Positions 6,918 through 23,670 of a stretch of DNA of 64,000 nucleotides are shown one piece after another. Position 1 is the first letter of the stretch. Each line of letters opens with the position of its first letter. The DNA lies in the NCBI GenBank assembly GCA_905479075.1, contig CAJQLA010000006.1, positions 1 to 64,000 on the forward strand, read 5' to 3'. Position numbers and translations under genes: made by a program. The notes under the pieces are model-generated. The model ran no database searches. It was given only the letters and a program-made list of their open reading frames with translations, and was not told where the DNA came from. The stretch comes from an uncultured Gammaproteobacteria bacterium. Lineage in GTDB: Bacteria > Pseudomonadota > Gammaproteobacteria > Nitrosococcales > Methylophagaceae.

Positions 6918-8240
6918 GTGAAAAATTTATCTGAAGAAAAAACAGCTGATTTGCTTAAAGAAATCAAAACAGAAGCAGCGGAATTACCTCAAAAGAAACG
7001 ACGGGATTTCATGCTTAACGGATTAAAACTAACAGCGGGGACAGCACTAGCAACTAGTGTAGGTAAAGTTCTAGCAGGTGAAGAAAACCTACCCCCAAAT
7101 ATTCCAACATGGCAAAAAACCCTAGGACGAGGCGTTGTCTCTGTTCCCTACGGGCAGCCATCGAAGCATGAAGCAGATCTCGTTAGACGAACTGTTGAAT
7201 GGTTGACTGCTGACGAGATCGCCTCTATCAGTATGACACCACTTCATAAGCAGAAAGGTATTATTACACCAAGCGGCTTGCACTTTGAACGCTACCATGG
7301 TGGCGTACCCGAAGTCGATCCTGACGATCATCGTCTTATCATAAACGGTTTGGTTGAGCGACCTCTGATCCTGACAATGGATGAGATCATGAGCTTCCCA
7401 TCAGAATCACATATCCATTTCCTTGAATGTCCAGCTAATGGCGGTATGGAATGGCGTGGCGCACAAATGGAAGCCCTTCAATTCACGCATGGCATGATCA
7501 GTGGCTCTGAATGGACCGGCGTTAAGCTCTCGACCATCCTACAAGAAGTCGGTGTTAAGCCTGAAGGTAAATGGGTCTTGGCCGAAGGTGCGGATGCCGC
7601 AGGTATGACACGAAGCATTCCTATGGAAAAAGCAATGGACGATGCAATGATTGTCTTCGCCCAAAATGGTGAGATGCTAAGGCCTGAACAAGGTTATCCA
7701 GTACGTCTATTTACACCAGGCTGGGAAGGCAACACCAGCGTCAAATGGCTACGCCGTTTAGAAGTTGGTGACATGCCGTGGATGCACCGTGAAGAAACCT
7801 CTAAATACACAGACCTATTGGCCGATGGTAAAGCACGTAAGCACAGTTATGTTCAGGAAGTGAACTCCGTTATTACTAGCCCATGTCCAGAAAGCCCAGC
7901 TAAGCGTAAAGGTATAATGCAGTTAGAAGGGTTTGCTTGGTCTGGCCGAGGGAAAATCACGCGCGTTGATGTCTCTCTAGACGGTGGCGTGAATTGGCAA
8001 CAAGCTAAACTGAAAGGTTTAGTGTTAACCAAATCAATGACTCGTTTTAGTATGGAAATTAACTGGCAAGGTGAACCACGGCTTCTTCAAAGTCGCGCGA
8101 TTGATGATACAGGCTATGTACAGCCGACGTATGCTCAGTTACGTGAAGCTAGAGGCACAAATTCAATCTACCATAAGAATGCTATCCATACATGGCAGTT
8201 AAATACAGATGGGACGGTAAACAATGTACAACTCGGTTAA
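6918..8240 (+). CDS. soxC: SoxC, sulfane dehydrogenase molybdenum subunit, 440 aa
   Basis: The gene starts with GTG at 6918, preceded by AGGTGG. A twin-arginine signal (K-R-R-D-F-M, arginines 28-29) is followed by a hydrophobic stretch ending near residue 53, so export is by Tat. The sulfite-oxidase-type molybdopterin domain contains HFLECPANGG with C171 as molybdenum ligand. A C-terminal Mo-co dimerisation domain follows (about 320-430). SoxC with the cytochrome SoxD oxidises the outer sulfur of SoxY-bound persulfide in the periplasm. SoxC and SoxD genes overlap by 17 bases, indicating coupled translation. Length and motifs are typical. Presence of soxCD predicts full thiosulfate oxidation to sulfate without stored sulfur globules. 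Confidence 0.95.
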   Translation: MKNLSEEKTADLLKEIKTEAAELPQKKRRDFMLNGLKLTAGTALATSVGKVLAGEENLPPNIPTWQKTLGRGVVSVPYGQPSKHEADLVRRTVEWLTADEIASISMTPLHKQKGIITPSGLHFERYHGGVPEVDPDDHRLIINGLVERPLILTMDEIMSFPSESHIHFLECPANGGMEWRGAQMEALQFTHGMISGSEWTGVKLSTILQEVGVKPEGKWVLAEGADAAGMTRSIPMEKAMDDAMIVFAQNGEMLRPEQGYPVRLFTPGWEGNTSVKWLRRLEVGDMPWMHREETSKYTDLLADGKARKHSYVQEVNSVITSPCPESPAKRKGIMQLEGFAWSGRGKITRVDVSLDGGVNWQQAKLKGLVLTKSMTRFSMEINWQGEPRLLQSRAIDDTGYVQPTYAQLREARGTNSIYHKNAIHTWQLNTDGTVNNVQLG

Positions 8241-9162
8241 GAAATATTTCAAAGTACTCGTTTTAGCTACTGCAGCTCAGGGGCTTTTTGCTTCTACAGC
8301 CTATGCACAAGATCCTGGTCATTACGGGCTTGGCCGCATTGCTACTGAAGAAGAAATTGCTGGCTGGGACATTGATGTTCGACCTGATGGCTTAGGACTA
8401 CCTGAAGGTAGTGGCTCTGTTTCAGTTGGTGAGGGTTTATATGAAGCACAATGTGCATCATGTCACGGTTTATTCGGTGAAGGTGAAGGCCGTTGGCCGA
8501 TCCTGGCCGGTGGTTACGACACACTGACAGATGATCGCCCTCAGAAAACAGTCGGCAGTTACTGGCCGTATGCTAGCACCTTATGGGATTACACCCGTCG
8601 TGCAATGCCATTTACTGCGCCACAATCTTTAACAGTTGATGAAACCTATGCAATTACAGCCTATGTTCTTTATCTAAATGAGCTTGTTGAAGATGACTTT
8701 GTTTTGACTAAAGAGAACTTTTTGACAGTTGAAATGCCAAATGCAGACGGGTTCTTTCATGATGATCGCCCTGATGTTAAGAACAAAGCTTGCATGAAAG
8801 ACTGTAAAGACCCTGCATCAATTAAAGTGATTTCAACGATTGCTGGAGTGTCACCAACAGAACACCTTGAAGAAGGTGCTGAGGAAGAGAGTGCTGGAGA
8901 AGCTGTTAATGAACATGGTAAGCAGGTTTATAAACAGTCATGTGCAGTGTGTCATGATCATGGCGTAGCTGGAGCCCCTAAAACGGGTGAAGCTGATGCT
9001 TGGACTGACAGAATCGCTACTGGAATAGATACGCTTGCAAAACGTGCTAATGAAGGTTACATGGGTGATGCAGGTATGATGCCTCCTAAAGGTGGCAATA
9101 TGAGCCTAAGTGATGAAGATGTGACAGCTGCTGTTGAATATATGGTTGAGCAGAGTCAATAA
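8224..9162 (+). CDS. soxD: SoxD, di-haem cytochrome c partner of SoxC, 312 aa
   Basis: An N-terminal Sec signal ends near the AYAQ site (about residue 29). Two c-type haem sites are present: CASCH at 77-81 and CAVCH at 240-244, the latter followed by a MMPPKGG methionine-ligand region. The segment between the domains (about 195-225) is acidic and likely a flexible linker. SoxD accepts electrons from SoxC and passes them to other periplasmic cytochromes. It overlaps soxC by 17 bases and is followed 33 bases later by soxX. An extra CMKDC pair in the first half (about 194-198) is not a haem motif and may form a disulfide. Confidence 0.94.
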   Translation: MYNSVKKYFKVLVLATAAQGLFASTAYAQDPGHYGLGRIATEEEIAGWDIDVRPDGLGLPEGSGSVSVGEGLYEAQCASCHGLFGEGEGRWPILAGGYDTLTDDRPQKTVGSYWPYASTLWDYTRRAMPFTAPQSLTVDETYAITAYVLYLNELVEDDFVLTKENFLTVEMPNADGFFHDDRPDVKNKACMKDCKDPASIKVISTIAGVSPTEHLEEGAEEESAGEAVNEHGKQVYKQSCAVCHDHGVAGAPKTGEADAWTDRIATGIDTLAKRANEGYMGDAGMMPPKGGNMSLSDEDVTAAVEYMVEQSQ

Positions 9163-9195
9163 GCTCCGCTAAAAATTAGAGGACATAATCTAAAA

Positions 9196-9540
9196 ATGAA
9201 AAAACTAATTCAACTTACCACAATGGCACTTCTATTACCTGTTGGCCTATCATCTGCTCTAGCAAATGACAGACTAGCTGAAGGTAAAGAAATTTCCTTT
9301 GATCGCAAAAAAGGTAACTGCCTAGCATGCCATGTGATGGATGATGGCCAACTTCCTGGCTACTTAGGACCTCCGCTTATGATGATGGAAGCGCGTTACC
9401 CAGATAGAGAGAAGCTAAAAGCACAAATAGCTGATCCCACTATCCGTAACCCGGCCACTTCAATGCCTCCTTATGGAAAGCACAGAATGTTAACTGAGGA
9501 CGAGCTAGACAAAGTCGTAGACTATGTCCACTCTTTGTAG
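9196..9540 (+). CDS. soxX: SoxX, mono-haem cytochrome c of the SoxAX complex, 114 aa
   Basis: A signal peptide ends near ALAND (about residue 23). The short mature protein has one haem site, CLACH at 42-46, and a C-terminal SMPPYG segment that supplies the methionine ligand. SoxX pairs with SoxA to join thiosulfate to the SoxY cysteine. At 114 aa it is at the small end for the family, which lacks an N-terminal extension here. It lies between soxD and soxY, with a downstream AAGATAACTTGGAG leader for soxY. Confidence 0.92.
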   Translation: MKKLIQLTTMALLLPVGLSSALANDRLAEGKEISFDRKKGNCLACHVMDDGQLPGYLGPPLMMMEARYPDREKLKAQIADPTIRNPATSMPPYGKHRMLTEDELDKVVDYVHSL

Positions 9541-9581
9541 CGCATAACAAAATATACAAAAGATAACTTGGAGAAAATATA

Positions 9582-10040
9582 ATGCAAGAAAAACGAAGAT
9601 TATTGCTGAAAAGCGTGCTGGGGTTCACAACAGTATTAGGAGCTGTTGCTGCAATGCCTAAGCTTGCTATGGCTAAGTGGTCAAAAGCATTTGACATTGA
9701 AAATGTTGACGGTGCTTTAGGCGAACTTTATGGCAGCAACGAAATGGCGGCAAGTGATCAAATCAAACTAAAAGTACCTGAAATTGCTGAAAATGGTGCT
9801 GTTGTTCCAGTTAGTGTTAAAACAGACCTACCAAACGTGACAAATATCAGCATACTGGCAGATAAAAACCCTCAGCCTTTAGCTGCATCATTCATCATCC
9901 CTGAAGGCACAGCCGCAGACGTTTCTATTCGTATTCGTCTAGGTGAAACGCAAGTAGTATCAGCCGTTGTTGAGTCCAATGGCAAGCTATATACAACTGA
10001 ACAAGAAGTTAAAGTTACCATCGGTGGCTGTGGCGGTTAA
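9582..10040 (+). CDS. soxY: SoxY, sulfur-carrier subunit, 152 aa
   Basis: The N-terminus is a twin-arginine signal (EKRRLLLKS) followed by a hydrophobic segment ending near AMA (about residue 30). The protein ends in the hallmark carrier motif GGCGG, with C150 as the swinging cysteine that holds the sulfur intermediates. SoxY forms a heterodimer with SoxZ, encoded 23 bases downstream, and the pair is exported together through Tat. The window also encodes TatABC. Length is typical. Confidence 0.96.
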   Translation: MQEKRRLLLKSVLGFTTVLGAVAAMPKLAMAKWSKAFDIENVDGALGELYGSNEMAASDQIKLKVPEIAENGAVVPVSVKTDLPNVTNISILADKNPQPLAASFIIPEGTAADVSIRIRLGETQVVSAVVESNGKLYTTEQEVKVTIGGCGG

Positions 10041-10063
10041 TTAAAGATATTGAGGTCAAATAA

Positions 10064-10366
10064 ATGAAAGTTAAAGCAAAAATGAAAAAAGACATGGCTG
10101 TTGTCAAACTGCTTGCCAAGCACCCAATGGAAACAGGGTTGCGCAAAGACAAGAAAACAGACAAAGTCATACCAGCAAAATATATCCAAGAGCTTATCTG
10201 CAAGCATGGTGATAAAGTGGTTTTTGAAGCTAACTTTGGTCGCGCTGTATCTAAAAACCCTTATGTTTCATTCTCATTTGCAGGCGCTAAAAAAGGTGAT
10301 GCCCTTGAGTTAAGCTGGGCTGATAATACAGGCGAAACACTTGTTGTAGATGCTGTAATAAAATAA
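10064..10366 (+). CDS. soxZ: SoxZ, partner of the sulfur carrier SoxY, 100 aa
   Basis: A 100-residue protein without its own signal peptide, as is usual for SoxZ, which travels across the membrane bound to SoxY. The immunoglobulin-like beta sandwich shows family features such as the KHPMETGLRKD stretch (residues 22-32) and the ending in a beta-rich segment with WADN.GE. It lies between soxY and soxA with 20-23 base gaps. ATG at 10064 follows a TTGAGG ribosome binding site. Confidence 0.95.
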   Translation: MKVKAKMKKDMAVVKLLAKHPMETGLRKDKKTDKVIPAKYIQELICKHGDKVVFEANFGRAVSKNPYVSFSFAGAKKGDALELSWADNTGETLVVDAVIK

Positions 10367-10386
10367 GAAGGCATAAGGATTTCTAT

Positions 10387-11223
10387 ATGAAAGCTATAAC
10401 CTATCTGTCTCTTGCATTACTTGGTGCTGGCGCATTTGCAGCACCAACTTATGCAGATCCAAAAGCCGATAACGAAGTCATGCATGAATTCTTTAAGAAG
10501 CGTTTTCCGAATGTTGAGTTCGCAGAATTCTCTAATGGAGTTTACGCTTTTGATGAAAATGCTCGTGAACAGTGGCTAGAGATTGAAGACTTTCCGCCAT
10601 ACGAAGATGCGGTCGAGCACGGACAAACTTTGTTTGAAACACCTTTTGCCAATGGTAAAAGTTATGCAGATTGCTTTGAGAACGGCGGCCTTAACATAAG
10701 ACAAGGCTATCCTAAGTTTGACGCTGATTCAGGACAAGTTGTTACACTTGAACTGGCGATAAATGAATGCCGCACTGCTAATGGTGAGGAAGCGCTTCCA
10801 TATGGCAGAGGTGACATCGCTGCCATCTCAGCCTATATGGCAACAACTTCAGCGGGTGAAATAATTAATGTTGTTGTGCCAAGCGATCCTAAAGCACTTG
10901 CAGCATATGAAGCGGGTAAAAAATTATTTTATGAGCGTCGTGGTCAACTAAACATGGCCTGTGCAACGTGTCATGTTCATAGTGCTGGGGGCCAAATTAG
11001 AGCAGATATATTGAGTCCTGCACTAGGCCATACAACGCACTTCCCTGCATATCGTTTTGCGGTGGAAGACTTAGTGACGATTCAGCATCGTTATGCAGGC
11101 TGTAACAAACAAGTAAGAGCAAAACCATTCGAATTACAAAGTGAAGAGTACCGTAATCTCGAGTACTACCATGCACATATGAGCAATGGTCTTCCTGTTA
11201 ATGGCCCTGGTTCAAGGAAATAA
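10387..11223 (+). CDS. soxA: SoxA, mono-haem type subunit of the SoxAX cytochrome, 278 aa
   Basis: A Sec signal peptide ends near TYADP (about residue 23). One c-haem motif is present, CATCH at 192-196, and the likely active-site cysteine ligand is C239 in RYAGCNKQ. The N-terminal half keeps the SoxA fold (YADCFENGG, INECR) but has no CxxCH, so this is the mono-haem form rather than the di-haem form. SoxAX starts the Sox cycle by coupling thiosulfate to SoxY. The next gene encodes a SoxAX-binding lipoprotein. Confidence 0.95.
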   Translation: MKAITYLSLALLGAGAFAAPTYADPKADNEVMHEFFKKRFPNVEFAEFSNGVYAFDENAREQWLEIEDFPPYEDAVEHGQTLFETPFANGKSYADCFENGGLNIRQGYPKFDADSGQVVTLELAINECRTANGEEALPYGRGDIAAISAYMATTSAGEIINVVVPSDPKALAAYEAGKKLFYERRGQLNMACATCHVHSAGGQIRADILSPALGHTTHFPAYRFAVEDLVTIQHRYAGCNKQVRAKPFELQSEEYRNLEYYHAHMSNGLPVNGPGSRK

Positions 11224-11227
11224 GATT

Positions 11228-11572
11228 ATGGCTAACTATAAATCTAACAAATTAATCGCGCTTCTATTTACAGCATTGTTCATCACTGCATGTAGTGAAT
11301 CAGGCAATGATGCAGCTGTATCGGCGGATCCTGAAGCAGCGTTAAAGCAACTAATGCATGAGGCTAAAGAAGCACAAGCACATGCACACCAACTTGGGTT
11401 CGAATGGAGTAATACGCAATCAATATTGGATGAAGGCCAAGCTGCACAAAAAGCTGGCGATCATGCAAAAGCACATGCTCTATACCAAGAAGCGAAACAC
11501 CAGTCTGTATTAGCCGTAGAGCAGGCTAACTATGCCAACGAACATTGGCAACTACTCGTTCCTGGCAAATGA
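11228..11572 (+). CDS. soxK: SoxK / SoxAX-binding protein (SAXB)-like lipoprotein, 114 aa
   Basis: I place the start at ATG 11228, just after the soxA stop and behind AAGGAAATAAG, because it gives a clean lipoprotein signal (ITAC, lipid-modified Cys22). The mature part is helical and rich in Ala, Gln and His. The pattern GFEW..TQ...EGQAA.KAGDHAKA...Y.EAK.QS..A is like SoxXA-binding proteins, whose typical pattern is G.EWRDT...I..AE.A.KAGD..KA. In Chlorobium and Thiomicrospira this partner stimulates SoxAX. The position between soxA and the rhodanese gene supports the call. The product is likely anchored to a membrane facing the periplasm. Confidence 0.78.
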   Translation: MANYKSNKLIALLFTALFITACSESGNDAAVSADPEAALKQLMHEAKEAQAHAHQLGFEWSNTQSILDEGQAAQKAGDHAKAHALYQEAKHQSVLAVEQANYANEHWQLLVPGK

Positions 11573-11620
11573 TTAAGTTACTTACTTGCTGAACAATCAA
11601 ATTAACCAAAGGAAATCAAC

Positions 11621-12271
11621 ATGAATAAAACAACCCTTAAAGCAGCTGCGCTGTTTTTATCGCTATTCGCAGTAGGTACCGCATCAGCTCTTGATGTACA
11701 GATTACACCTGACCTTCCATCTGTAGATGTTAATAATCATGGTGAAACTGTTACCATCATGAGAAATCAGGACACAAAAAATACTATCAACCCTGATTAT
11801 GCAAAAACCTCAAGAAAATGTCCTCCGTTCTGCATCCGCCCAATTAAGCTTGCTGAAGGCGTAGAAACATTGGGTGAGCTTGAAATCATTCATTATGTAA
11901 AAATGCATAGTGATGGTGATGATTCAATTATGATCATTGACTCTCGTACACCTGATTGGGTTGCTAAGGGCACTATCCCTGGCTCAGTCAACATTCCTTG
12001 GACACACCTAGATACAGCAAAAGGCGCTAGCCCATTTGATATTGCTGAAATTATGCAAGAAAAATTTGGTGTAGAAGAACAAGAAGGTCTTTGGAACTAC
12101 AACAATGCTAAAACATTAGTCATGTTCTGTAATGGTATGTGGTGTGGTCAATCACCAAGAAACATCCTTACGCTATTAAAGTTTGGCTACCCAGCACATA
12201 AAATCAAATGGTACCGTGGTGGTATGCAAAACTGGGAAACTTTAGGTCTGTCTACTGTTAAACCTAAATAA
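11621..12271 (+). CDS. soxL: Exported rhodanese-like protein, SoxL-like, 216 aa
   Basis: A signal peptide ends near ASA-L (about residue 23). A CPPFC motif (C67-C71) precedes a single rhodanese domain (about 85-210). The usual active loop Cys-X-X-G-X-R is replaced by C170-NGMW-C175, so a second cysteine stands where other rhodaneses have the basic residue. Rhodaneses in sox clusters are thought to pass sulfur between thiosulfate, the Sox carrier and thiols. It lies 48 bases after the soxK-like gene and is followed by a terminator, ending this transcript before soxB. The name is by synteny and could be debated. Confidence 0.75.
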   Translation: MNKTTLKAAALFLSLFAVGTASALDVQITPDLPSVDVNNHGETVTIMRNQDTKNTINPDYAKTSRKCPPFCIRPIKLAEGVETLGELEIIHYVKMHSDGDDSIMIIDSRTPDWVAKGTIPGSVNIPWTHLDTAKGASPFDIAEIMQEKFGVEEQEGLWNYNNAKTLVMFCNGMWCGQSPRNILTLLKFGYPAHKIKWYRGGMQNWETLGLSTVKPK

Positions 12272-12302
12272 AACCCCTTAAGCCACACAAGCTACAACAA
12301 TG

Positions 12303-12348
12303 ACTGCCCAGTACTATAGTTAAAAACTTTAGTTCTGGGCAGTTTTTT
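12303..12348 (+). terminator. Intrinsic terminator between the rhodanese gene and soxB
   Basis: Outer arms ACTGCCCAG (12303-12311) and CTGGGCAGT (12335-12343) form a long hairpin. An imperfect inner stem lies within it, followed by TTTTTT. It separates soxB from the soxC-to-rhodanese run, although some read-through is possible. Confidence 0.9.
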
Positions 12349-12377
12349 ATGATCTATATTAAAAGTAATGGTTAACT

Positions 12378-14135
12378 ATGAATCGTCGTGAATTTACCCA
12401 AATGCTTGCGATTGCAAGCGCAGCCAATATCTTCCCAAAAACAGCTTTTTCTGGTCAAAATTGTGAAGATAAAGAGAAAATGTATGATATCCCCACTTTT
12501 GGTAATGCACGATTGCTTCATATTACAGATAGCCATGCTCAGTTATTACCCATCTATTTTAGAGAGCCGAGTGTCAATATCGGAATCAATGAGGAAGATG
12601 GCAAACCACCACATATCGTTGGCCAGCATTTCTTAGACTTCTATGGCTTGCCATCTAGCGGCATGAAGACGCATGCTTTCACCTCTCTAGACTTTACGAG
12701 TAACGCGCATAAATTCGGTAAAGTTGGCGGCTATGCTCACCTAAGTACACTCGTAAAGCAATTACGACAAAGTTATGGCGACAATGATCGTTCGCTACTT
12801 CTCGATGGTGGTGATACATGGCAAGGTTCTGCAACAGCCTATTGGACTCGCGGTAAAGACATGGTTGAGGCCTCAAATATTCTTGGTGTTGATGTCATGA
12901 CAGGGCACTGGGAGTTTACCTATCAAGATACTGAGGTTCTTGAAAATGTGGAGGCATTCAATGGTGAATTCATCGCTCACAATGTAAAAGTTAACGAAGA
13001 TGCATTATTCGAAGGCTCGCCAGCTTATGATGAAGATACCGGCAATGCGTTTAAACCTTACACCATTAAAGAGATGGGCGGCCATCGCGTAGCTGTTATT
13101 GGACAAGCATTCCCATACACACCCATTGCAAATCCTAAGCGCTTTATTCCTGACTGGACTTTCGGAATACAAGCACAAGAGTTACAAGCCTTGATAGATG
13201 AAGTTCGCGAATCGGAACAACCTGATGCCGTAATTTTGCTATCTCATAACGGAATGGATGTTGACATCAAATTGGCTGCAACAGTGACAGGACTTGACGT
13301 CATTTTAGGCGGGCACACTCATGATGGTATACCAAAGCCCGTTCATGTAAAAAATGCTGGCGGTCAAACGCTTGTTACCAACGCTGGTTCAAATGGTAAA
13401 TTCGTCGGAGTCTTAGATCTTGAGCTTGGTAAGGGCCATGTCAAAGATTTCCGCTATACCTTATTACCTGTATTTTCTAATTTCATTGAAGCTGATAAAG
13501 AAATGGAAAGCTTTATTAATGACGTTAGAAGCCCATACCTAGACAAATTGACTGAAGAACTTGCTGTCTCGGATGAGTTGTTATATCGCCGAGGCAACTT
13601 TAACGGGACTTTTGATCAAGTTATTTGTGATGCCTTGCGTAAAGTGGGTGGCGCTGATATCTCACTATCTCCTGGCTTCAGATGGGGTACAACAGTACTG
13701 CCAGGCCAAAGCATCACGATGGAACACGTTATGGATCAAACATGCATAACCTATCCAGAAACCTATGTAAATGAAATGACCGGTTCACAGATCAAGGCTA
13801 TTCTTGAAGACGTCTGTGACAATATTTTCAATTTGGATCCATTCTATCGTCAAGGCGGCGATATGGTTCGCGTAGGGGGTATGGATTATGTCTGTGATCC
13901 TCTAGGGCAGTTTGGCCATCGAATCAGCAATATGACTTTAGATAACGGCACCGTCATTGAGGCTGATAAAACTTATAAAGTAGCGGGTTGGGCAACGGTC
14001 AACTCACAAGCTGAAGGCCCTGCGATTTGGGATGTTGTCGGTGACTATTTACGTGACAAAAAACAATTTTCAATAGAAAAAATGAATGTGCCTAAACTAA
14101 AAAACATGCAAGGAAATAAAGGTATTATTTCTTAG
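12378..14135 (+). CDS. soxB: SoxB, thiosulfohydrolase, 585 aa
   Basis: The N-terminus MNRREF plus a hydrophobic stretch is a twin-arginine signal. The calcineurin-like di-manganese domain shows DSHAQ (51-55), GGDTWQGS near 143, the SoxB-typical GHWEFTY in place of the nucleotidase GNHE, LLSHNGMD near 290 and GGHTHDGIP near 311. A 5'-nucleotidase C-terminal domain follows (about 395-560). SoxB hydrolyses the terminal sulfone of SoxY-bound sulfur to release sulfate in the periplasm. It has a terminator on each side, so it is separable from the main sox operon. Length is normal. Confidence 0.96.
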   Translation: MNRREFTQMLAIASAANIFPKTAFSGQNCEDKEKMYDIPTFGNARLLHITDSHAQLLPIYFREPSVNIGINEEDGKPPHIVGQHFLDFYGLPSSGMKTHAFTSLDFTSNAHKFGKVGGYAHLSTLVKQLRQSYGDNDRSLLLDGGDTWQGSATAYWTRGKDMVEASNILGVDVMTGHWEFTYQDTEVLENVEAFNGEFIAHNVKVNEDALFEGSPAYDEDTGNAFKPYTIKEMGGHRVAVIGQAFPYTPIANPKRFIPDWTFGIQAQELQALIDEVRESEQPDAVILLSHNGMDVDIKLAATVTGLDVILGGHTHDGIPKPVHVKNAGGQTLVTNAGSNGKFVGVLDLELGKGHVKDFRYTLLPVFSNFIEADKEMESFINDVRSPYLDKLTEELAVSDELLYRRGNFNGTFDQVICDALRKVGGADISLSPGFRWGTTVLPGQSITMEHVMDQTCITYPETYVNEMTGSQIKAILEDVCDNIFNLDPFYRQGGDMVRVGGMDYVCDPLGQFGHRISNMTLDNGTVIEADKTYKVAGWATVNSQAEGPAIWDVVGDYLRDKKQFSIEKMNVPKLKNMQGNKGIIS

Positions 14136-16030: not shown

Positions 16031-16346
16031 AAGCAGGTCATAGCTCAATTCTCTATGCCTAGTTTTTCCATAAAAGTAAGCAAGACAAATATAACTGATA
16101 TATATCAATAAAACAGATTCGATACTAGTATTAATACTAGGCCTTTTTTAGACATCATTGATGTATCATCCGTGTAGGTATCTATCTATATAGGTATGAC
16201 ATTAAGTATATTGATGCCTGCATATGAACGCATCGATCATAAAGCTACGAACCTCGTTAGAGTAAAGTATCGAAATAGCGTGTGATTAAGAAACAGGTCA
16301 TAAACCTGTTTGTTAGATGATGCGAATTGTAAATTTAGGAGATGAT
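16031..16346 (+). promoter_or_regulatory. mtoX upstream region with several palindromes
   Basis: This 316-base gene-free stretch holds an FNR/CRP-like site at 16095-16108, a perfect 16-bp palindrome at 16125-16140 (followed by a short T run) and an 8-bp inverted repeat with a 5-nt spacer at 16291-16311. The last lies about 35 bases before the mtoX start. Together they suggest regulated expression of methanethiol oxidation. The palindrome plus T run may also end the upstream gene. Confidence 0.5.
16095..16108 (+). promoter_or_regulatory. FNR-like site upstream of mtoX
   Basis: CTGATATATATCAA matches the FNR consensus TTGAT-N4-ATCAA at all but the first position. An FNR-type regulator is encoded at 24656-25405. 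It lies about 240 bases before the mtoX start. Confidence 0.45.
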
Positions 16347-17723
16347 ATGAATATTAAGAAATTTATCAGTACCCCGCTAAAAGTGATGGCGCCTCTAGCC
16401 ACTGCTGCAGTTATGGCGACCAGCCCAGTAATGGCTGATGAAACATGTATGTCACCATACATGGTTAAAATCGTAGGGCAAGAAGACTTCGTTTACGTTT
16501 GGACTCTTGGTGTTGAAGGCTTAGGCGATGGTCAAGATAAAATGGTTACAGTTGATGTAAACCCTAAATCTGACCACTACGGCAAAGTTATCCACACTGA
16601 ATCTGTCGGTGGTCGTAACGAAGCACATCACTCTGGTTTTACGGATGATCGTAAATACCTTTGGGCTGGTGGTCTAGATTCAAACAAAATCTTTATCTTT
16701 GACGTTCACACTGATCCAGCTAAAGCTACTTTAGTTAAAACTATCGATGACTTCGTTAGTAAATCAGGTGGTGTTGTTGGTCCTCACACAACTTACGCTC
16801 TTCCAGGTCGTATGATTATTACAGGTCTATCTAACAACCAAGACCATGGTGGTCGTACTGCGCTAGTTGAGTACACAAACCACGGTGAATATATCGGCAC
16901 TTACTGGATGCCTACTGATGACAACCTTCAAGGTGCTGTCAAAAGTGGTCAATTCGCAGATGGTTACGGTTATGACGTTCGTGCATTACCTTCTAAAAAC
17001 GTAATGTTAACTTCTTCATTCACTGGTTGGTCTAACTACATGATGGACTTCGGTGCTATGTTAGGTGATGCAGAAGCGATGAAACGTTTCGGTAACACTA
17101 TGGTTATCTGGGACCTTCACACGCGTAAAGCAAAACAAGTCTTAGACGTACCAGGTGCACCTCTTGAAGTACGTTGTGCATGGAAACCAGAAAACCAATA
17201 CTGTTTCTCTACAACAGCTCTAACTTCACAAATCGTTCTTCTGCATGACAGTGATAACGATGGTACGTGGACAGCTGAAAATGTATCTGATATCGGTGTT
17301 CCTTCTGACATCCCATTACCTGTTGATATCTCTATCCAATATGATGACGCTCTTTTATGGGTCAACACATTCATGGATGGTAAAACACGTGCATTTGACA
17401 TCACTGATCCTCATAACCCTACACAGGTTTATGAAAAACAAATCGGTAACCAAGTGAACATGGTTTCTTCAAGCTGGGATGGTACACGTTTGTACTACAC
17501 TACTTCTTTACTAGGTAACTGGGATAAGAAAGGTGATGATAACGATCAGTTCATCAAACTATACCATTGGGATGGTAAAGAAATGACTGAACAGTTCTCT
17601 ATCGACTTCCAAGCTGAGAAGCTAGGTCGTGCACATCAAATGCGTTTTGGTGCTTATTCTCTCTATGGCAAACAAGCCAAAGTAGAAAAAGACGAAAATG
17701 CTAAAGTAGCAATGAACAAATAG
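16347..17723 (+). CDS. mtoX: Methanethiol oxidase MtoX (selenium-binding protein 56 family), 458 aa
   Basis: I choose ATG 16347 because TTAGGAGATGAT directly precedes it and the protein then begins with a clean signal peptide, with cleavage near VMADE. The mature protein is of the SBP56/SELENBP1 family: it starts with CMSPYMVK, has EAHHSGF, a beta-propeller body and ends with a conserved RAHQMRFGAYSLYG segment. In Hyphomicrobium the homologue is a periplasmic copper enzyme converting methanethiol, oxygen and water to formaldehyde, hydrogen sulfide and hydrogen peroxide. The following SCO1 and MauG genes are the known neighbours of mtoX, which strengthens the call. Some SBP56 proteins have other or unknown roles. 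Confidence 0.9.
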   Translation: MNIKKFISTPLKVMAPLATAAVMATSPVMADETCMSPYMVKIVGQEDFVYVWTLGVEGLGDGQDKMVTVDVNPKSDHYGKVIHTESVGGRNEAHHSGFTDDRKYLWAGGLDSNKIFIFDVHTDPAKATLVKTIDDFVSKSGGVVGPHTTYALPGRMIITGLSNNQDHGGRTALVEYTNHGEYIGTYWMPTDDNLQGAVKSGQFADGYGYDVRALPSKNVMLTSSFTGWSNYMMDFGAMLGDAEAMKRFGNTMVIWDLHTRKAKQVLDVPGAPLEVRCAWKPENQYCFSTTALTSQIVLLHDSDNDGTWTAENVSDIGVPSDIPLPVDISIQYDDALLWVNTFMDGKTRAFDITDPHNPTQVYEKQIGNQVNMVSSSWDGTRLYYTTSLLGNWDKKGDDNDQFIKLYHWDGKEMTEQFSIDFQAEKLGRAHQMRFGAYSLYGKQAKVEKDENAKVAMNK

Positions 17724-17771: not shown

Positions 17772-19805
17772 ATGACATTCCCAGGTATAAAAGTAGGTAT
17801 TATTTTATTGGCTTTCTGTTCGGCTCTAAGCCATGCAGAAGAGGTAGTTCCAGCAAGTGAAAGAGAAGTACAGGTTCAATTACTTGCACCTGGTTATGGC
17901 GCTCTTAATTTTCCGCTACCAAAGGCAGGGAGCTATTCGCTCCCTGCCTTTGGCGACGCGGCAGATGCTAGAGTTCTAAATGCCGATGGAGAATACGTTA
18001 ATTACCACGACATATTCAAAGGCAAATACACCCTATTAAGCTTTATCTATACTCGTTGTACTGATGTTAACGGTTGTCCGTTATCGCACTTAGTTTTTAA
18101 CCGTGTTCAGTCAGAAGGCAACAAAATTCCGGCGATCGCTGACAACTTACAGCTTATCAGCATGAGTTTCGACCCGGAAAATGATACCCCCGAGATTCTA
18201 AAAGCACTTAGTCAAGAAGACCACAGTGCGCACGAAGGCCATGATATGAGTGGTCATGAAGGCCATGATATGAGTGCTATGGCTAAGAAAAAAGAAGTTG
18301 CGCTGATGTACTTAACAGCCGACTCAGTCGAAAACTTAATGCCTATTGTTGATGATTACGATCAAACGATCCAAAACCAAATCAATGAAGATGGCACGCA
18401 ATCAGAAAATTTCTCTCATATACTTCGTGTATATTTAATTGATCCAGAACTTAAGATCCGCAATATTTATAGCGTTTCTTTCCTTCATCCAGATATTATT
18501 ATTAATGACGTCAAAACCTTGATGATGGCAGAGGGCATGATAGAGCTACCTAGCGATATAGCCGCTCTAGCCAAGACACAAGCTGAGGCAGGAGCAAAAG
18601 GTGTTCGTGTAGGTGCAAGTGATAGCAAAGAAGGCTATGGCACTGAAGGGTACGAGACTAACTCTCGTGCCATTATCGCTCGTAAAGGTGTAAAAGCAGA
18701 TTTAATTCGCGTGCTAGAAACAGCCCCCTTAGGCCTTCCTAAGGTCCCCGTTCCTGAAAATAATCCTGTAACAGAAGAAAAAGTCGACCTAGGTAAAAAG
18801 CTGTTTTTTGATCGACGCTTATCTTTGAATGACACTTTCTCTTGTGCGATGTGTCATATCGCAGAACAAGGTTATACGAGCCACGAAATGGAAAGAGCGG
18901 TCGGTGTAGAGGGTCGAGAAAATCGCCGAAATACACCAACACTCTATAACAGCGCTTATTTATCTCGCTTGTTCCATGACGGTAGAGAAATCAGCCTAGA
19001 AAACCTGGTTTGGGACCAACTTACAGGTCGCAATGAAATGGCAATGACATCTATAGGTCAAGTCATTGACAAGATCCGTGGCATTGAAGATTACCAAGGT
19101 TTGTTTGAAAAAGCATTCGACGGCCGTGAAGCAGATGTCCTCACCATCGGTCAGGCTCTTGCCAGCTATCAACGTGTATTAGTATCTGGTAATTCTTCTT
19201 TTGATCGCTGGTACTATGGCAAAGAACAAGCCGCTATTTCTGAACAAGCTGCCAGAGGTTTTGAATTATTTAAAGGTAAAGCTAATTGCATTGCTTGTCA
19301 TAGTGTTGAAGAAGACCATGCACTATTCATGGACAACAAGTTACACAATACAGGCATTGGCTTTAATGTCGCCTATGCTAAAGCACCTGAAACAGAACGA
19401 ATGAACATAGCCCCTGGTGTTTATATTGATGTTAAGAGGTCCATTGTCGACAAGTTTAAAGAAACCATTGGTGATTTGGGCTATTACGAAGTCACCCAGG
19501 ATCCGGATGATCGTTGGAAGTATCGCACCCCAACACTACGAAATATCGCTCTGACTGCACCTTATATGCACAATGGCTCCATTCCTACACTGAAAGATGT
19601 CGTTGCTATTTATAATCAAGGTGGATACCCGGACGATGGTGGCATTATGAAAAATGTCACCCAATCACCATTAATTAAACCTCTGAACTTGACGGAACAG
19701 GAAGCAGAAGACTTAGTGGCCTTTTTGAAAACTCTAACTGGCGACAATATTGAAGAAGTAATTTCTGATGCATTTTCAACACCCGTTGGCGATACTCAGC
19801 ATTAA
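17772..19805 (+). CDS. SCO1/SenC-MauG fusion protein, 677 aa
   Basis: A signal peptide (to about residue 22) is followed by a SCO1-type thioredoxin fold with cysteines C96 and C102 (five residues apart, against three in classic SCO1) and H239 as third copper ligand. A His/Met-rich insertion at about 150-170 contains a duplicated GHEGHDMS unit and could bind copper. From about residue 285 a linker leads into a MauG/di-haem peroxidase domain with haem sites CAMCH (358-362) and CIACH (506-510). In known mtoX operons SCO1 and MauG are separate genes; here they are one protein. It probably serves copper insertion and cofactor maturation of MtoX, or removes peroxide. It follows mtoX by 48 bases. 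Confidence 0.88.
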   Translation: MTFPGIKVGIILLAFCSALSHAEEVVPASEREVQVQLLAPGYGALNFPLPKAGSYSLPAFGDAADARVLNADGEYVNYHDIFKGKYTLLSFIYTRCTDVNGCPLSHLVFNRVQSEGNKIPAIADNLQLISMSFDPENDTPEILKALSQEDHSAHEGHDMSGHEGHDMSAMAKKKEVALMYLTADSVENLMPIVDDYDQTIQNQINEDGTQSENFSHILRVYLIDPELKIRNIYSVSFLHPDIIINDVKTLMMAEGMIELPSDIAALAKTQAEAGAKGVRVGASDSKEGYGTEGYETNSRAIIARKGVKADLIRVLETAPLGLPKVPVPENNPVTEEKVDLGKKLFFDRRLSLNDTFSCAMCHIAEQGYTSHEMERAVGVEGRENRRNTPTLYNSAYLSRLFHDGREISLENLVWDQLTGRNEMAMTSIGQVIDKIRGIEDYQGLFEKAFDGREADVLTIGQALASYQRVLVSGNSSFDRWYYGKEQAAISEQAARGFELFKGKANCIACHSVEEDHALFMDNKLHNTGIGFNVAYAKAPETERMNIAPGVYIDVKRSIVDKFKETIGDLGYYEVTQDPDDRWKYRTPTLRNIALTAPYMHNGSIPTLKDVVAIYNQGGYPDDGGIMKNVTQSPLIKPLNLTEQEAEDLVAFLKTLTGDNIEEVISDAFSTPVGDTQH

Positions 19806-21134: not shown

Positions 21135-21176
21135 ACTTCGAGATAATAAATAGTATAAATGCGAAGGAATACAAAC

Positions 21177-21671
21177 ATGCACAAATGGTTATTAATAGGT
21201 CTAGCTATGTTTGCGACAACAAGTATAGCCAAAACCCCAGCGCCTGAAATGACGCCTATGGACCCTGTCCAAACCGCTGCTGATTTCACTTTACCAGCGA
21301 CAGATAAAACACCCTTTAGTTTATCTGACTATAAAGGTAAGTATGTCTTGGTTAACTTTTGGGCTCACTGGTGTGGGCCATGTGTCAAAGAGTTTCCTGC
21401 GATGCAAACTCTCTACGATAGCCTGAAAGATGATGATTTTGAAATCGTAGCAATTCATGCGGGTCCTGCTCAAGGCCGTGTGATCCCATTTTTAGAAAAA
21501 CATGGCATTACTTTTAAGGTGGTAGTTGATCCCGCTATGTCCGTTCATGGCTGGGACGTACCTGTTCTTCCAGTCAGTTATTTAGTTAGCCCTGAGGGCA
21601 AGCTTATCTACAAGGCGCTGGGGCCAAGAGAATGGCATGTGGACGCAATGAAGGCATTGATAACAGACTAA
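21177..21671 (+). CDS. Exported TlpA/ResA-like thioredoxin, 164 aa
   Basis: Start at ATG 21177 is preferred because GAAGGA lies just upstream and it gives a compact signal peptide (cleavage near SIAKT). The thioredoxin fold has WAHWCGPC and the AhpC/TSA-type N-terminal extension (ADFTLPATD). Periplasmic TlpA-like proteins reduce disulfides in apocytochromes and copper chaperones such as SCO1, or keep SoxY reduced in the manner of SoxW. The gene follows the MauG genes by about 40 bases and belongs to the MtoX group, so reducing the SCO domain's CxxxxxC is a sensible guess. A SoxW-like role is the main alternative. Confidence 0.85.
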   Translation: MHKWLLIGLAMFATTSIAKTPAPEMTPMDPVQTAADFTLPATDKTPFSLSDYKGKYVLVNFWAHWCGPCVKEFPAMQTLYDSLKDDDFEIVAIHAGPAQGRVIPFLEKHGITFKVVVDPAMSVHGWDVPVLPVSYLVSPEGKLIYKALGPREWHVDAMKALITD

Positions 21672-21782: not shown

Positions 21783-22976
21783 ATGAATAATGACAAACAT
21801 TATGAGGTTGTGATTGTAGGAGGCGGTGCTGCTGGCATCAGCACAGCAGCAAGATTATCGAAAGAACTGCCTAGCGGTAGTATCGCAATTATTGAACCCT
21901 CTACAGAACACTACTATCAGCCGATCTGGACGTTAGTTGGCGGCGGTGTATTTCCAAAAGATGTATCTGAAAAAGATACAGCAACATTGATACCTGAAGG
22001 TTGTGACTGGATAAAAGATTCAGTAACGGGCTTTAATCCAACTGACAATAAAGTAAATACCAGAGAAAATGGTGATATTTCCTACAGTTTTTTAGTTGTT
22101 GCCGCTGGCATCCAGATTAATTGGACGGAAATTAAGGGGCTTTCTCGAAACGTCGGTAAAAAAGGTATTTGTAGCAACTATAGTTATAAAACTGTAGATT
22201 CAACTTGGGAAAATATCCGTAGCTTAGGAAAAGGCACTGCTATTTTCACCCAGCCCGGTAGCCCAATTAAATGTGGTGGCGCGCCACAGAAAATCATGTA
22301 TTTAGCTGAAGACTACTTCAGACGTGCTGGTTTGAGAAAACAAATTGATGTTAAGTTTGTCTCTGGCATGCCAGGTATATTTGCTGTTAAAAAGTACGCG
22401 GAAGAGCTCAATAAAATCTGTGATACACGAGGAATTGAACGTACATTCCGTCATGATCTTGTTGAAGTTGATGCCGACAATAAAGTGGCTATTTTTAAAA
22501 ATCTTGATACTGAAGAGCTGGTATCAATGGAATATGACATGCTACATGTCACACCTAAAATGGGACCACCTAATTTCATTAAGAAGAGTCCGCTAGCAAA
22601 CGAAGGCGGCTGGGTCGATGTCAACAAAGACACGCTGCAGCATAATGAATTTAACAATGTTTTTGCCTGTGGAGACTGTAGTAGCTTGCCGACATCAAAA
22701 ACTGCTGCTGCAATTCGTGCTCAAGTACCTGTTATGGTACGCAACCTACTTACAGCAAGAGACAACCACCCCTTAGACGATCATTACGATGGTTATACTT
22801 CATGCCCATTGGTAACGGGCTATGGCAAGTTAATTCTGGCTGAATTTGATTACGATTTGAACCCGAAAGAGACATTTCCGTTTGATCAGGGTGTAGAAAG
22901 AAAGAGTATGTATATCCTGAAAAAAGATATTCTTCCTAAATTATATTGGCACGGCATGTTGAAAGGACGTTTCTAA
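21783..22976 (+). CDS. sqr: Sulfide:quinone oxidoreductase, type II (SQOR/Hmt2-like), 397 aa
   Basis: The N-terminal FAD-binding loop is VVIVGGGAAGIS. The active-site context PIKCGGAPQKIMYLAE (C164) and FACGDCSSLPTSKTAAA (C299) matches mitochondrial-type SQOR, in which these cysteines bridge the sulfur intermediate. No signal peptide is present; type II SQRs are peripheral membrane proteins. They oxidise sulfide, reduce quinone and hand a sulfane sulfur to a thiol such as glutathione. The next gene (one base later) is a persulfide dioxygenase, the usual partner. Placement just after the MtoX cluster fits detoxification of sulfide released from methanethiol. Confidence 0.92.
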   Translation: MNNDKHYEVVIVGGGAAGISTAARLSKELPSGSIAIIEPSTEHYYQPIWTLVGGGVFPKDVSEKDTATLIPEGCDWIKDSVTGFNPTDNKVNTRENGDISYSFLVVAAGIQINWTEIKGLSRNVGKKGICSNYSYKTVDSTWENIRSLGKGTAIFTQPGSPIKCGGAPQKIMYLAEDYFRRAGLRKQIDVKFVSGMPGIFAVKKYAEELNKICDTRGIERTFRHDLVEVDADNKVAIFKNLDTEELVSMEYDMLHVTPKMGPPNFIKKSPLANEGGWVDVNKDTLQHNEFNNVFACGDCSSLPTSKTAAAIRAQVPVMVRNLLTARDNHPLDDHYDGYTSCPLVTGYGKLILAEFDYDLNPKETFPFDQGVERKSMYILKKDILPKLYWHGMLKGRF

Positions 22977-22977
22977 A

Positions 22978-23670
22978 ATGACACATTTTAAGCAATTTTT
23001 TGATGATGTCAGTTGCACTTACACCTATTTTATCGCTGATAGCGCGACTAAAAAGGCTGTTATTGTTGATCCCGTTCTGGAGCATGTCGACAGCTACATG
23101 GAGCATATTCAGTTTAACAACTTCGAGTTATTATACGTACTCGAAACTCATGTTCATGCAGATCATATTACCGGTGGTTCAGTTTTACGCAAAAAAACGG
23201 GGGCCAAGACGGCTGTTAGTCTCTTATGTGGTGCCACGTGTGCTGATCATCAGTTAAATGATGGCGATATTATAGAGTTTGGTACACAAAAAATTCGTGT
23301 GCTTTTAACGCCAGGACATACCGGTGGTAGCGTAAGCTTTATTTGGCAAGATCGTATTTTTACAGGTGATGCATTATTAATTGGTGGCTGTGGTAGAACG
23401 GACTTCCAAGCAGGTGATGCGGCAACACTCTATGACAGCATTACTCAAAAAATATTCTCACTAGCTGATGAAACACTGGTATTCCCAGGCCATGACTACA
23501 ACGGAAATTTTGTAAGCTCAATAGCTCAAGAAAAGAAAAAGAATCCTCGCCTTGCTGGTAAGAGCAAAGAAGAGTTTATTGAAATAATGGACAATTTAAA
23601 TCTGCCCGACCCTAAACAAATGGATATTGCTGTTCCAGCCAACAAACAATGCGGTACTATTCCAATATAA
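22978..23670 (+). CDS. Persulfide dioxygenase (ETHE1-like), 230 aa
   Basis: A metallo-beta-lactamase-fold protein with ETHVHADHITG at about 57-66 giving the iron ligands, TPGHTGG near 110, FTGDALLIGGCGRTDF near 130 and FPGHDYNG near 170. This set is typical of ETHE1/Blh-type persulfide dioxygenases, which oxidise glutathione persulfide to sulfite. The ATG follows the sqr stop by one base, so the two are translated together. No signal peptide: cytoplasmic. Sulfite could combine with persulfide to give thiosulfate, a substrate for the Sox system in this window. A short T-rich stretch follows but no strong terminator. Confidence 0.92.
   Translation: MTHFKQFFDDVSCTYTYFIADSATKKAVIVDPVLEHVDSYMEHIQFNNFELLYVLETHVHADHITGGSVLRKKTGAKTAVSLLCGATCADHQLNDGDIIEFGTQKIRVLLTPGHTGGSVSFIWQDRIFTGDALLIGGCGRTDFQAGDAATLYDSITQKIFSLADETLVFPGHDYNGNFVSSIAQEKKKNPRLAGKSKEEFIEIMDNLNLPDPKQMDIAVPANKQCGTIPI

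Follow-up and report, generated by a model that had tools for sequence, protein, structure and literature searches.

The gene that directly follows mtoX in the analysed stretch of DNA (64,000 nucleotides, referred to here as the window) encodes an SCO domain and a MauG-type di-haem domain in a single chain, and this protein is probably a periplasmic maturation factor dedicated to the methanethiol oxidase MtoX, which would insert copper into the enzyme and oxidise one or more of its aromatic residues. The fusion architecture is real, ordinary for mto clusters and already published: the SCO1-MauG fusion of M. thiooxydans was shown by Eyice et al. in 2018 (Figure 2, PMC5739008), and a 2019 Methylophaga paper describes mtoX, the SCO1/MauG fusion, tlpA, pdo, sqrB and sulP in both mto clusters of that species, the fusion being induced on DMS (PMC6548844). 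These two papers overtake the sequence-only reading, which was aware of no characterised protein of such architecture; experiments on the purified fusion protein are absent from the papers found. What is added here to the literature found, in which these points are not stated (the search was incomplete), is the C-x5-C signature of the SCO domain, its confinement to genomes with mtoX, and the MbnH-like character of the haem domain with its axial-type tyrosine.

The fused reading frame and its surroundings

The fusion frame opens with an ATG 48 bp behind the end of mtoX and encodes 677 residues with no internal stop (Table 1). Pfam places SCO1-SenC at residues 69-173 (E 8.9e-13), CCP_MauG at residues 335-485 (E 2.9e-45) and Cytochrom_C at residues 493-655, all above the curated cut-offs, and the ORF call, the domain search and the fold thus bear out that SCO and MauG share one frame, as had been read from the sequence; the placement directly after mtoX, the haem motifs and the cysteines C96 and C102 were also located correctly there. 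The N-terminal residues 1-23 look signal-like by inspection, with a predicted helix at residues 6-19. In-frame SCO-MauG fusions are found in dozens of other genomes, 15 of which were aligned to the window protein and are 46-71% identical to it. Because the identical in-frame architecture recurs so widely, a sequencing error that deleted a stop between the two domains, which had been named as a possible refutation, is ruled out, and the fusion is genuine. A first predicted structure of the protein was poor (pLDDT 59.7); a second one reached a pLDDT of 69.5, with residues 352-427 and 563-598 below 50, and since these stretches surround the first haem and the segment preceding Y614, the placing of the domains relative to each other in the model is not interpretable.

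Table 1. Features of the mtoX cluster and of the fusion protein in the window
Feature	Position	Strand	Basis
mtoX, methanethiol oxidase (SBP56 family)	16317..17723	+	NF052453, 746.5 bits (cut-off 650)
SCO-MauG fusion gene	17772..19805	+	ORF call, Pfam; homologous fusions in other genomes
SCO domain, thioredoxin-like fold	17934..18530	+	residues about 55-253; Pfam SCO1-SenC; predicted fold
C96-TDVNG-C102, C-x5-C motif	18057..18077	+	conservation among mtoX-type SCO domains, HMMER alignment
His/Met-rich insert, residues 149-175	18216..18296	+	C-to-H spacing, His+Met counts
H216, SCO copper-ligand histidine (by alignment)	18417..18419	+	HMMER alignment to BsSco His, conservation
Di-haem MbnH/MauG-type domain	18750..19751	+	residues 327-660; TIGR04039, TIGR03791, PDB matches
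First haem c motif CAMCH, residues 358-362	18843..18857	+	domain alignment
Second haem c motif CIACH, residues 506-510	19287..19301	+	domain alignment
Y614, MauG Tyr294 equivalent	19611..19613	+	alignment register
Second MauG-type protein, haem-only, 428 aa	19848..21134	+	profile search, haem tree
TlpA-like thioredoxin (WCGPC)	21159..21671	+	profile search
Sulfide:quinone reductase-like flavoprotein	21783..22976	+	profile search
Persulfide dioxygenase-like metallo-hydrolase	22978..23670	+	profile search

The window agrees with mto clusters 1 and 2 of M. thiooxydans in having the two domains in one gene directly after mtoX and in its companion genes (tlpA-like, persulfide dioxygenase and sulfide:quinone reductase), and differs from them in the extra haem-only MauG gene between the fusion and tlpA and in the sox cluster directly upstream. 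The latter comprises SoxC, SoxY, SoxA, a SoxAX-binding-like protein, a rhodanese and SoxB; the sox genes (6918-14135) share the strand of the mtoX cluster and run straight up to it, which suggests that the two clusters form a single methanethiol-to-sulfate unit. One genome of the same family carries two mtoX clusters, which together with the gene content points to a probable kinship of the window organism with Methylophaga.

The SCO domain

By fold and by profile the first domain is SCO-like, with a SCO1-SenC score of 48.8 bits (cut-off 22.8) and a predicted fold that resembles Arabidopsis SCO1 with bound copper (6n5u; TM-score, normalised by target length, 0.84). It shares with the Sco/SenC chaperones the thioredoxin-like fold and the combination of two cysteines and a distal histidine, but it lacks the canonical CxxxC copper motif of SCO1/SenC and has C-x5-C in its place, which in the HMMER alignment against BsSco appears as a gap of two residues. 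This longer motif belongs to a signature, CxDxxGCP, that is common to the fused and the split forms, with C96, G101, C102 and P103 present in all 64 mtoX-type SCO domains and D98 in 63 of them. Among the next-best SCO matches of the class and phylum samples, all 10 in which the motif was read show CxxxC, and the other Sco of the window genome (L099) is likewise canonical. No literature on a CX5C Sco was found.

The copper-ligand histidine had been assigned to H239 in the sequence-only reading. This residue was dropped in favour of H216, which aligns with the histidine of BsSco (HMMER) and is kept in 63 of 64 homologues, as compared with 55 of 64 for H239. A further departure from the Sco/SenC chaperones is the His/Met-rich insert, which is confined to the window's bacterial family: the measured members of this family have a C-to-H spacing of 115-129 residues with 8-14 His and Met residues, whereas the others that were measured have 93-100 residues with 0-2. 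Extra copper binding by the insert is possible.

The haem domain and its haem-only paralogues

The second domain is nearer to MbnH than to MauG. It scores 248.5 bits on the MbnH model TIGR04039 (cut-off 362.85) and 201.1 bits on the MauG model TIGR03791 (cut-off 443.85), thus remaining below the cut-off of both, and its best PDB match by sequence as well as by fold is MbnH (6e1c), with a sequence E-value of 2.6e-50 as against 1e-19 for MauG. With MbnH, a MauG-like protein associated with copper homeostasis, it has in common the two haems and the aligned axial tyrosine, although the identity in the Foldseek alignment is only about 30% and MbnH has no SCO domain. MbnH turns a tryptophan of its partner into kynurenine, a reaction for which no paper turned up in the literature searched. 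With MauG, which acts in TTQ biogenesis, the domain shares the two CxxCH motifs and the tyrosine at the Tyr294 position, the match being the weaker one.

Both haem motifs are strongly conserved. The first is kept in 45 of 45 fused and in 25 of 26 single haem domains (the exception has a gap there), and for the second C509 and H510 are present in all 71 domains and C506 in 70, with an X in the remaining one. A third landmark is Y614, which by alignment register falls opposite Tyr294 of MauG and Met275 of the P. aeruginosa cytochrome c peroxidase CCP (PDB 1nml), the axial haem ligands of those two proteins. The register is given by MauG residue 256 falling on query position 66 and by 1nml residue 275 standing opposite query position 104. 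All 71 haem domains, fused or single, have tyrosine at this position.

The MauG-type protein directly behind the fusion shares 67% identity with the fusion's haem domain, and three more of the sampled lineages (G055, G246 and G334) also combine a fusion with an extra MauG gene. Since the haem-only paralogues of the window's genus are nested within the fusion clade in the haem-domain tree (support 100/99), and those adjacent to mtoX retain a similar signal-like N-terminus, they most likely arose from fusions through loss of the SCO domain, as judged from these sequences. Another haem-only paralogue of the same fusion clade is located away from mtoX in the window genome (contig C2, L220:3407-4747).

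Fused and split forms of the gene pair

The fusion is the commonest form of the gene pair in the sampled Gammaproteobacteria. In this class sample the pair at mtoX is fused in 24 genomes (23 and the window) and encoded by separate genes in 8; in one genome (G270) mtoX is accompanied by a haem-only gene, the fusion being located elsewhere, and in another mtoX is cut by a contig end. The 23 fused genomes other than the window include three with an extra MauG gene and one (G028) in which the haem part is frameshifted (L174), be it a real frameshift or an assembly error. Outside the class, all three clusters of the phylum sample are split. The survey of split versus fused forms that had been proposed from the sequence alone thus did find both, but the expectation that mtoX operons carry separate genes does not hold for this class, where the fused form prevails 24 to 8. 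Separate SCO1/senC and mauG genes at mtoX, with the same two functions, are described for Hyphomicrobium sp. VS and Ruegeria pomeroyi (PMC5739008), the comparison being with the published description; the split SCO domains that were sampled carry the Cx5C motif like the fusion.

Fused and split states have interchanged repeatedly. The haem-domain tree, which leaves out two long-branch rows, requires at least 10 changes between them, 6 of which are forced by well-supported branches, and the MtoX tree requires at least 8. The position of the fusion is also variable: in at least seven genomes of the window's genus it lies away from mtoX, beside persulfide dioxygenase/sulfide:quinone reductase genes, and in five of these a haem-only MauG of 465-468 aa directly follows mtoX. 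In the sister species the fusion stands apart from mtoX, which is adjoined by an SCO-less MauG.

Association with mtoX

The relationship to mtoX was assessed with the SCO domain as query, a match of more than 60 bits being counted as strong. Strong matches occur in 34 of the 369 genomes of the class sample, all of them among the 35 that have mtoX, and in none of the other 334 (Fisher p 2.6e-47, a value that ignores shared ancestry); in the sole mtoX genome without one, mtoX is cut off at a contig end. In the window's family, all 13 genomes that match mtoX (two of them with fragments only) carry a strong SCO match, which is absent from all other genomes of the family; the strong matches of the phylum sample are limited to the window and four genomes whose mtoX scores over the cut-off. 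An mtoX-type SCO was therefore found in no genome without an mtoX match in the class, family or phylum samples, which favours the dedicated role with MtoX proposed earlier.

Adjacency to mtoX is broken in the nearest relatives, within the window's genus, and co-occurrence within the genome is intact. Because co-occurrence survives where adjacency is lost, the link between the fusion and MtoX holds, and the suspicion that the fusion might be unrelated to mtoX in other genomes is answered in favour of the link.

MtoX as the candidate substrate

MtoX, which would be the substrate of the fusion, has a signal-like N-terminus from about Met11 in the window. Its putative copper ligands, H104, H105, H157 and H440, are conserved in MtoX and in 25 SBP56 proteins scoring below the mtoX cut-off, with one exception at H105. 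W402 is present in 23 of these 25, and W265 is also conserved there; as the copper histidines, W265 and W402 are kept in SBP56 proteins from genomes that lack the SCO/MauG pair, they do not by themselves demand MauG chemistry. W348 and W387, on the other hand, are found in 57 of 57 MtoX sequences and in neither the 25 SBP56 proteins nor six intermediate homologues without the pair. Their covariation with the pair is a lead only, MtoX also being one clade.

Several other residues were considered and set aside. W238 appeared conserved in all SBP56 proteins in a first alignment, and in a second one, to which the intermediate homologues had been added, its position held Pro with a Trp a few residues away, so that its conservation beyond MtoX is alignment-dependent and was not used as evidence. 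W62, W116 and Y160 at first seemed to go with the pair, but W62 and Y160 are also present in two intermediate SBP56 proteins without it (L222 and L223), and W116 is present in one of the two. Y160 (16794-16796) is Tyr in 53 of 57 MtoX sequences and His in all 25 of the other SBP56 proteins, and it aligns with H140 of the HxxH motif needed for the activity of human SELENBP1; the MtoX copper site may thus differ from that of other SBP56 proteins at this position. A second, divergent mtoX without adjoining SCO/MauG (L192, G314 contig C83) has Q at the H105 position.

Proposed mechanism and alternative models

MTO contains copper and its operon is conserved (PMC5739008). In the model proposed here, the SCO domain would bind copper via C96, C102 and H216 and pass it on to the site formed by the four histidines of MtoX, the direction of transfer being presumed, while the downstream TlpA-like protein would keep the SCO cysteine pair reduced. 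Many mto clusters, whether fused or split, are followed by a TlpA-like gene, and a TlpA-ScoI mixed-disulfide complex appears among the fold-search matches in the PDB (4txo); the cluster TlpA is therefore, by analogy, a natural candidate reductant of the SCO cysteines. The haem domain, with a predicted His/Tyr-ligated haem, would draw on peroxide or O2 for the oxidation of at least one aromatic residue in MtoX, the product being perhaps TTQ, as proposed for MTO in 2018, with other Trp or Tyr products equally open. It is possible, though doubtful, that the system is a distinct and MtoX-only one, with a copper site at C-x5-C that is unlike that of Sco and with the oxidised target being another MtoX-specific aromatic residue, such as W348 or W387, and not the proposed TTQ pair W238/W402. 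It has to be noted that human SELENBP1 produced in E. coli, for which no SCO/MauG partner is reported, needs only copper (PMC10362175), and that Rhodobacteraceae MTOs break down methanethiol when purified from E. coli (PMC10936201); since these enzymes are active from E. coli, maturation by the fusion may be inessential.

The fusion may conceivably couple the copper and the oxidation steps physically. The sequence-only reading went further and took the fusion to imply strongly that MtoX receives its copper and undergoes MauG action jointly, a conclusion that is not supported in view of the persistence of split pairs in many lineages, the 8-10 or more changes between the states and the sister species whose fusion is distant from mtoX. 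An even stronger form, in which the single chain is essential because copper and oxidation are channelled on one MtoX molecule, accords with the prevalence of the fused form and with the domains staying joined even where the gene has left mtoX, but it is quite improbable given the split pairs in at least eight class genomes and in three phylum clusters outside the class, the same repeated switching, and the haem-only paralogues at mtoX in five relatives.

A different model would have the haem domain act as a peroxidase that clears the H2O2 made by MtoX, with the SCO domain as its thiol-disulfide partner, so that the fusion protects the enzyme and does not mature it. MTO does yield H2O2, DMS induces catalase and peroxiredoxin (PMC6548844), and the haem fold is of the di-haem peroxidase type; the axial position, however, is held throughout by Tyr, as in MauG, and not by the Met of classical peroxidases, the nearest solved relative is MbnH, and the SCO copper ligands are kept, which makes protection unlikely. 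The location of the fusion beside pdo/sqr genes in at least seven same-genus genomes could alternatively indicate that it matures another copper protein, e.g. a terminal oxidase, its adjacency to mtoX being incidental. Those genomes nevertheless all possess mtoX (in one case a fragment only), every sampled genome without an mtoX match lacks the mtoX-type SCO, and the window genome has its separate CxxxC Sco for other duties, so that a target other than MtoX appears very improbable.

Implications

Marine organic sulfur cycling depends at a key step on methanethiol oxidase, whose cofactor has been unsettled since the TTQ proposal of 2018. Because mtoX is exclusively paired with a C-x5-C SCO domain and a haem domain bearing the axial-type tyrosine, the present results suggest that a dedicated maturation system sets MtoX apart from other SBP56 proteins. 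The forms that occur naturally (fused, split and SCO-lost), together with the MtoX-specific aromatic residues, offer concrete targets that can be probed by mass spectrometry and by gene deletion.
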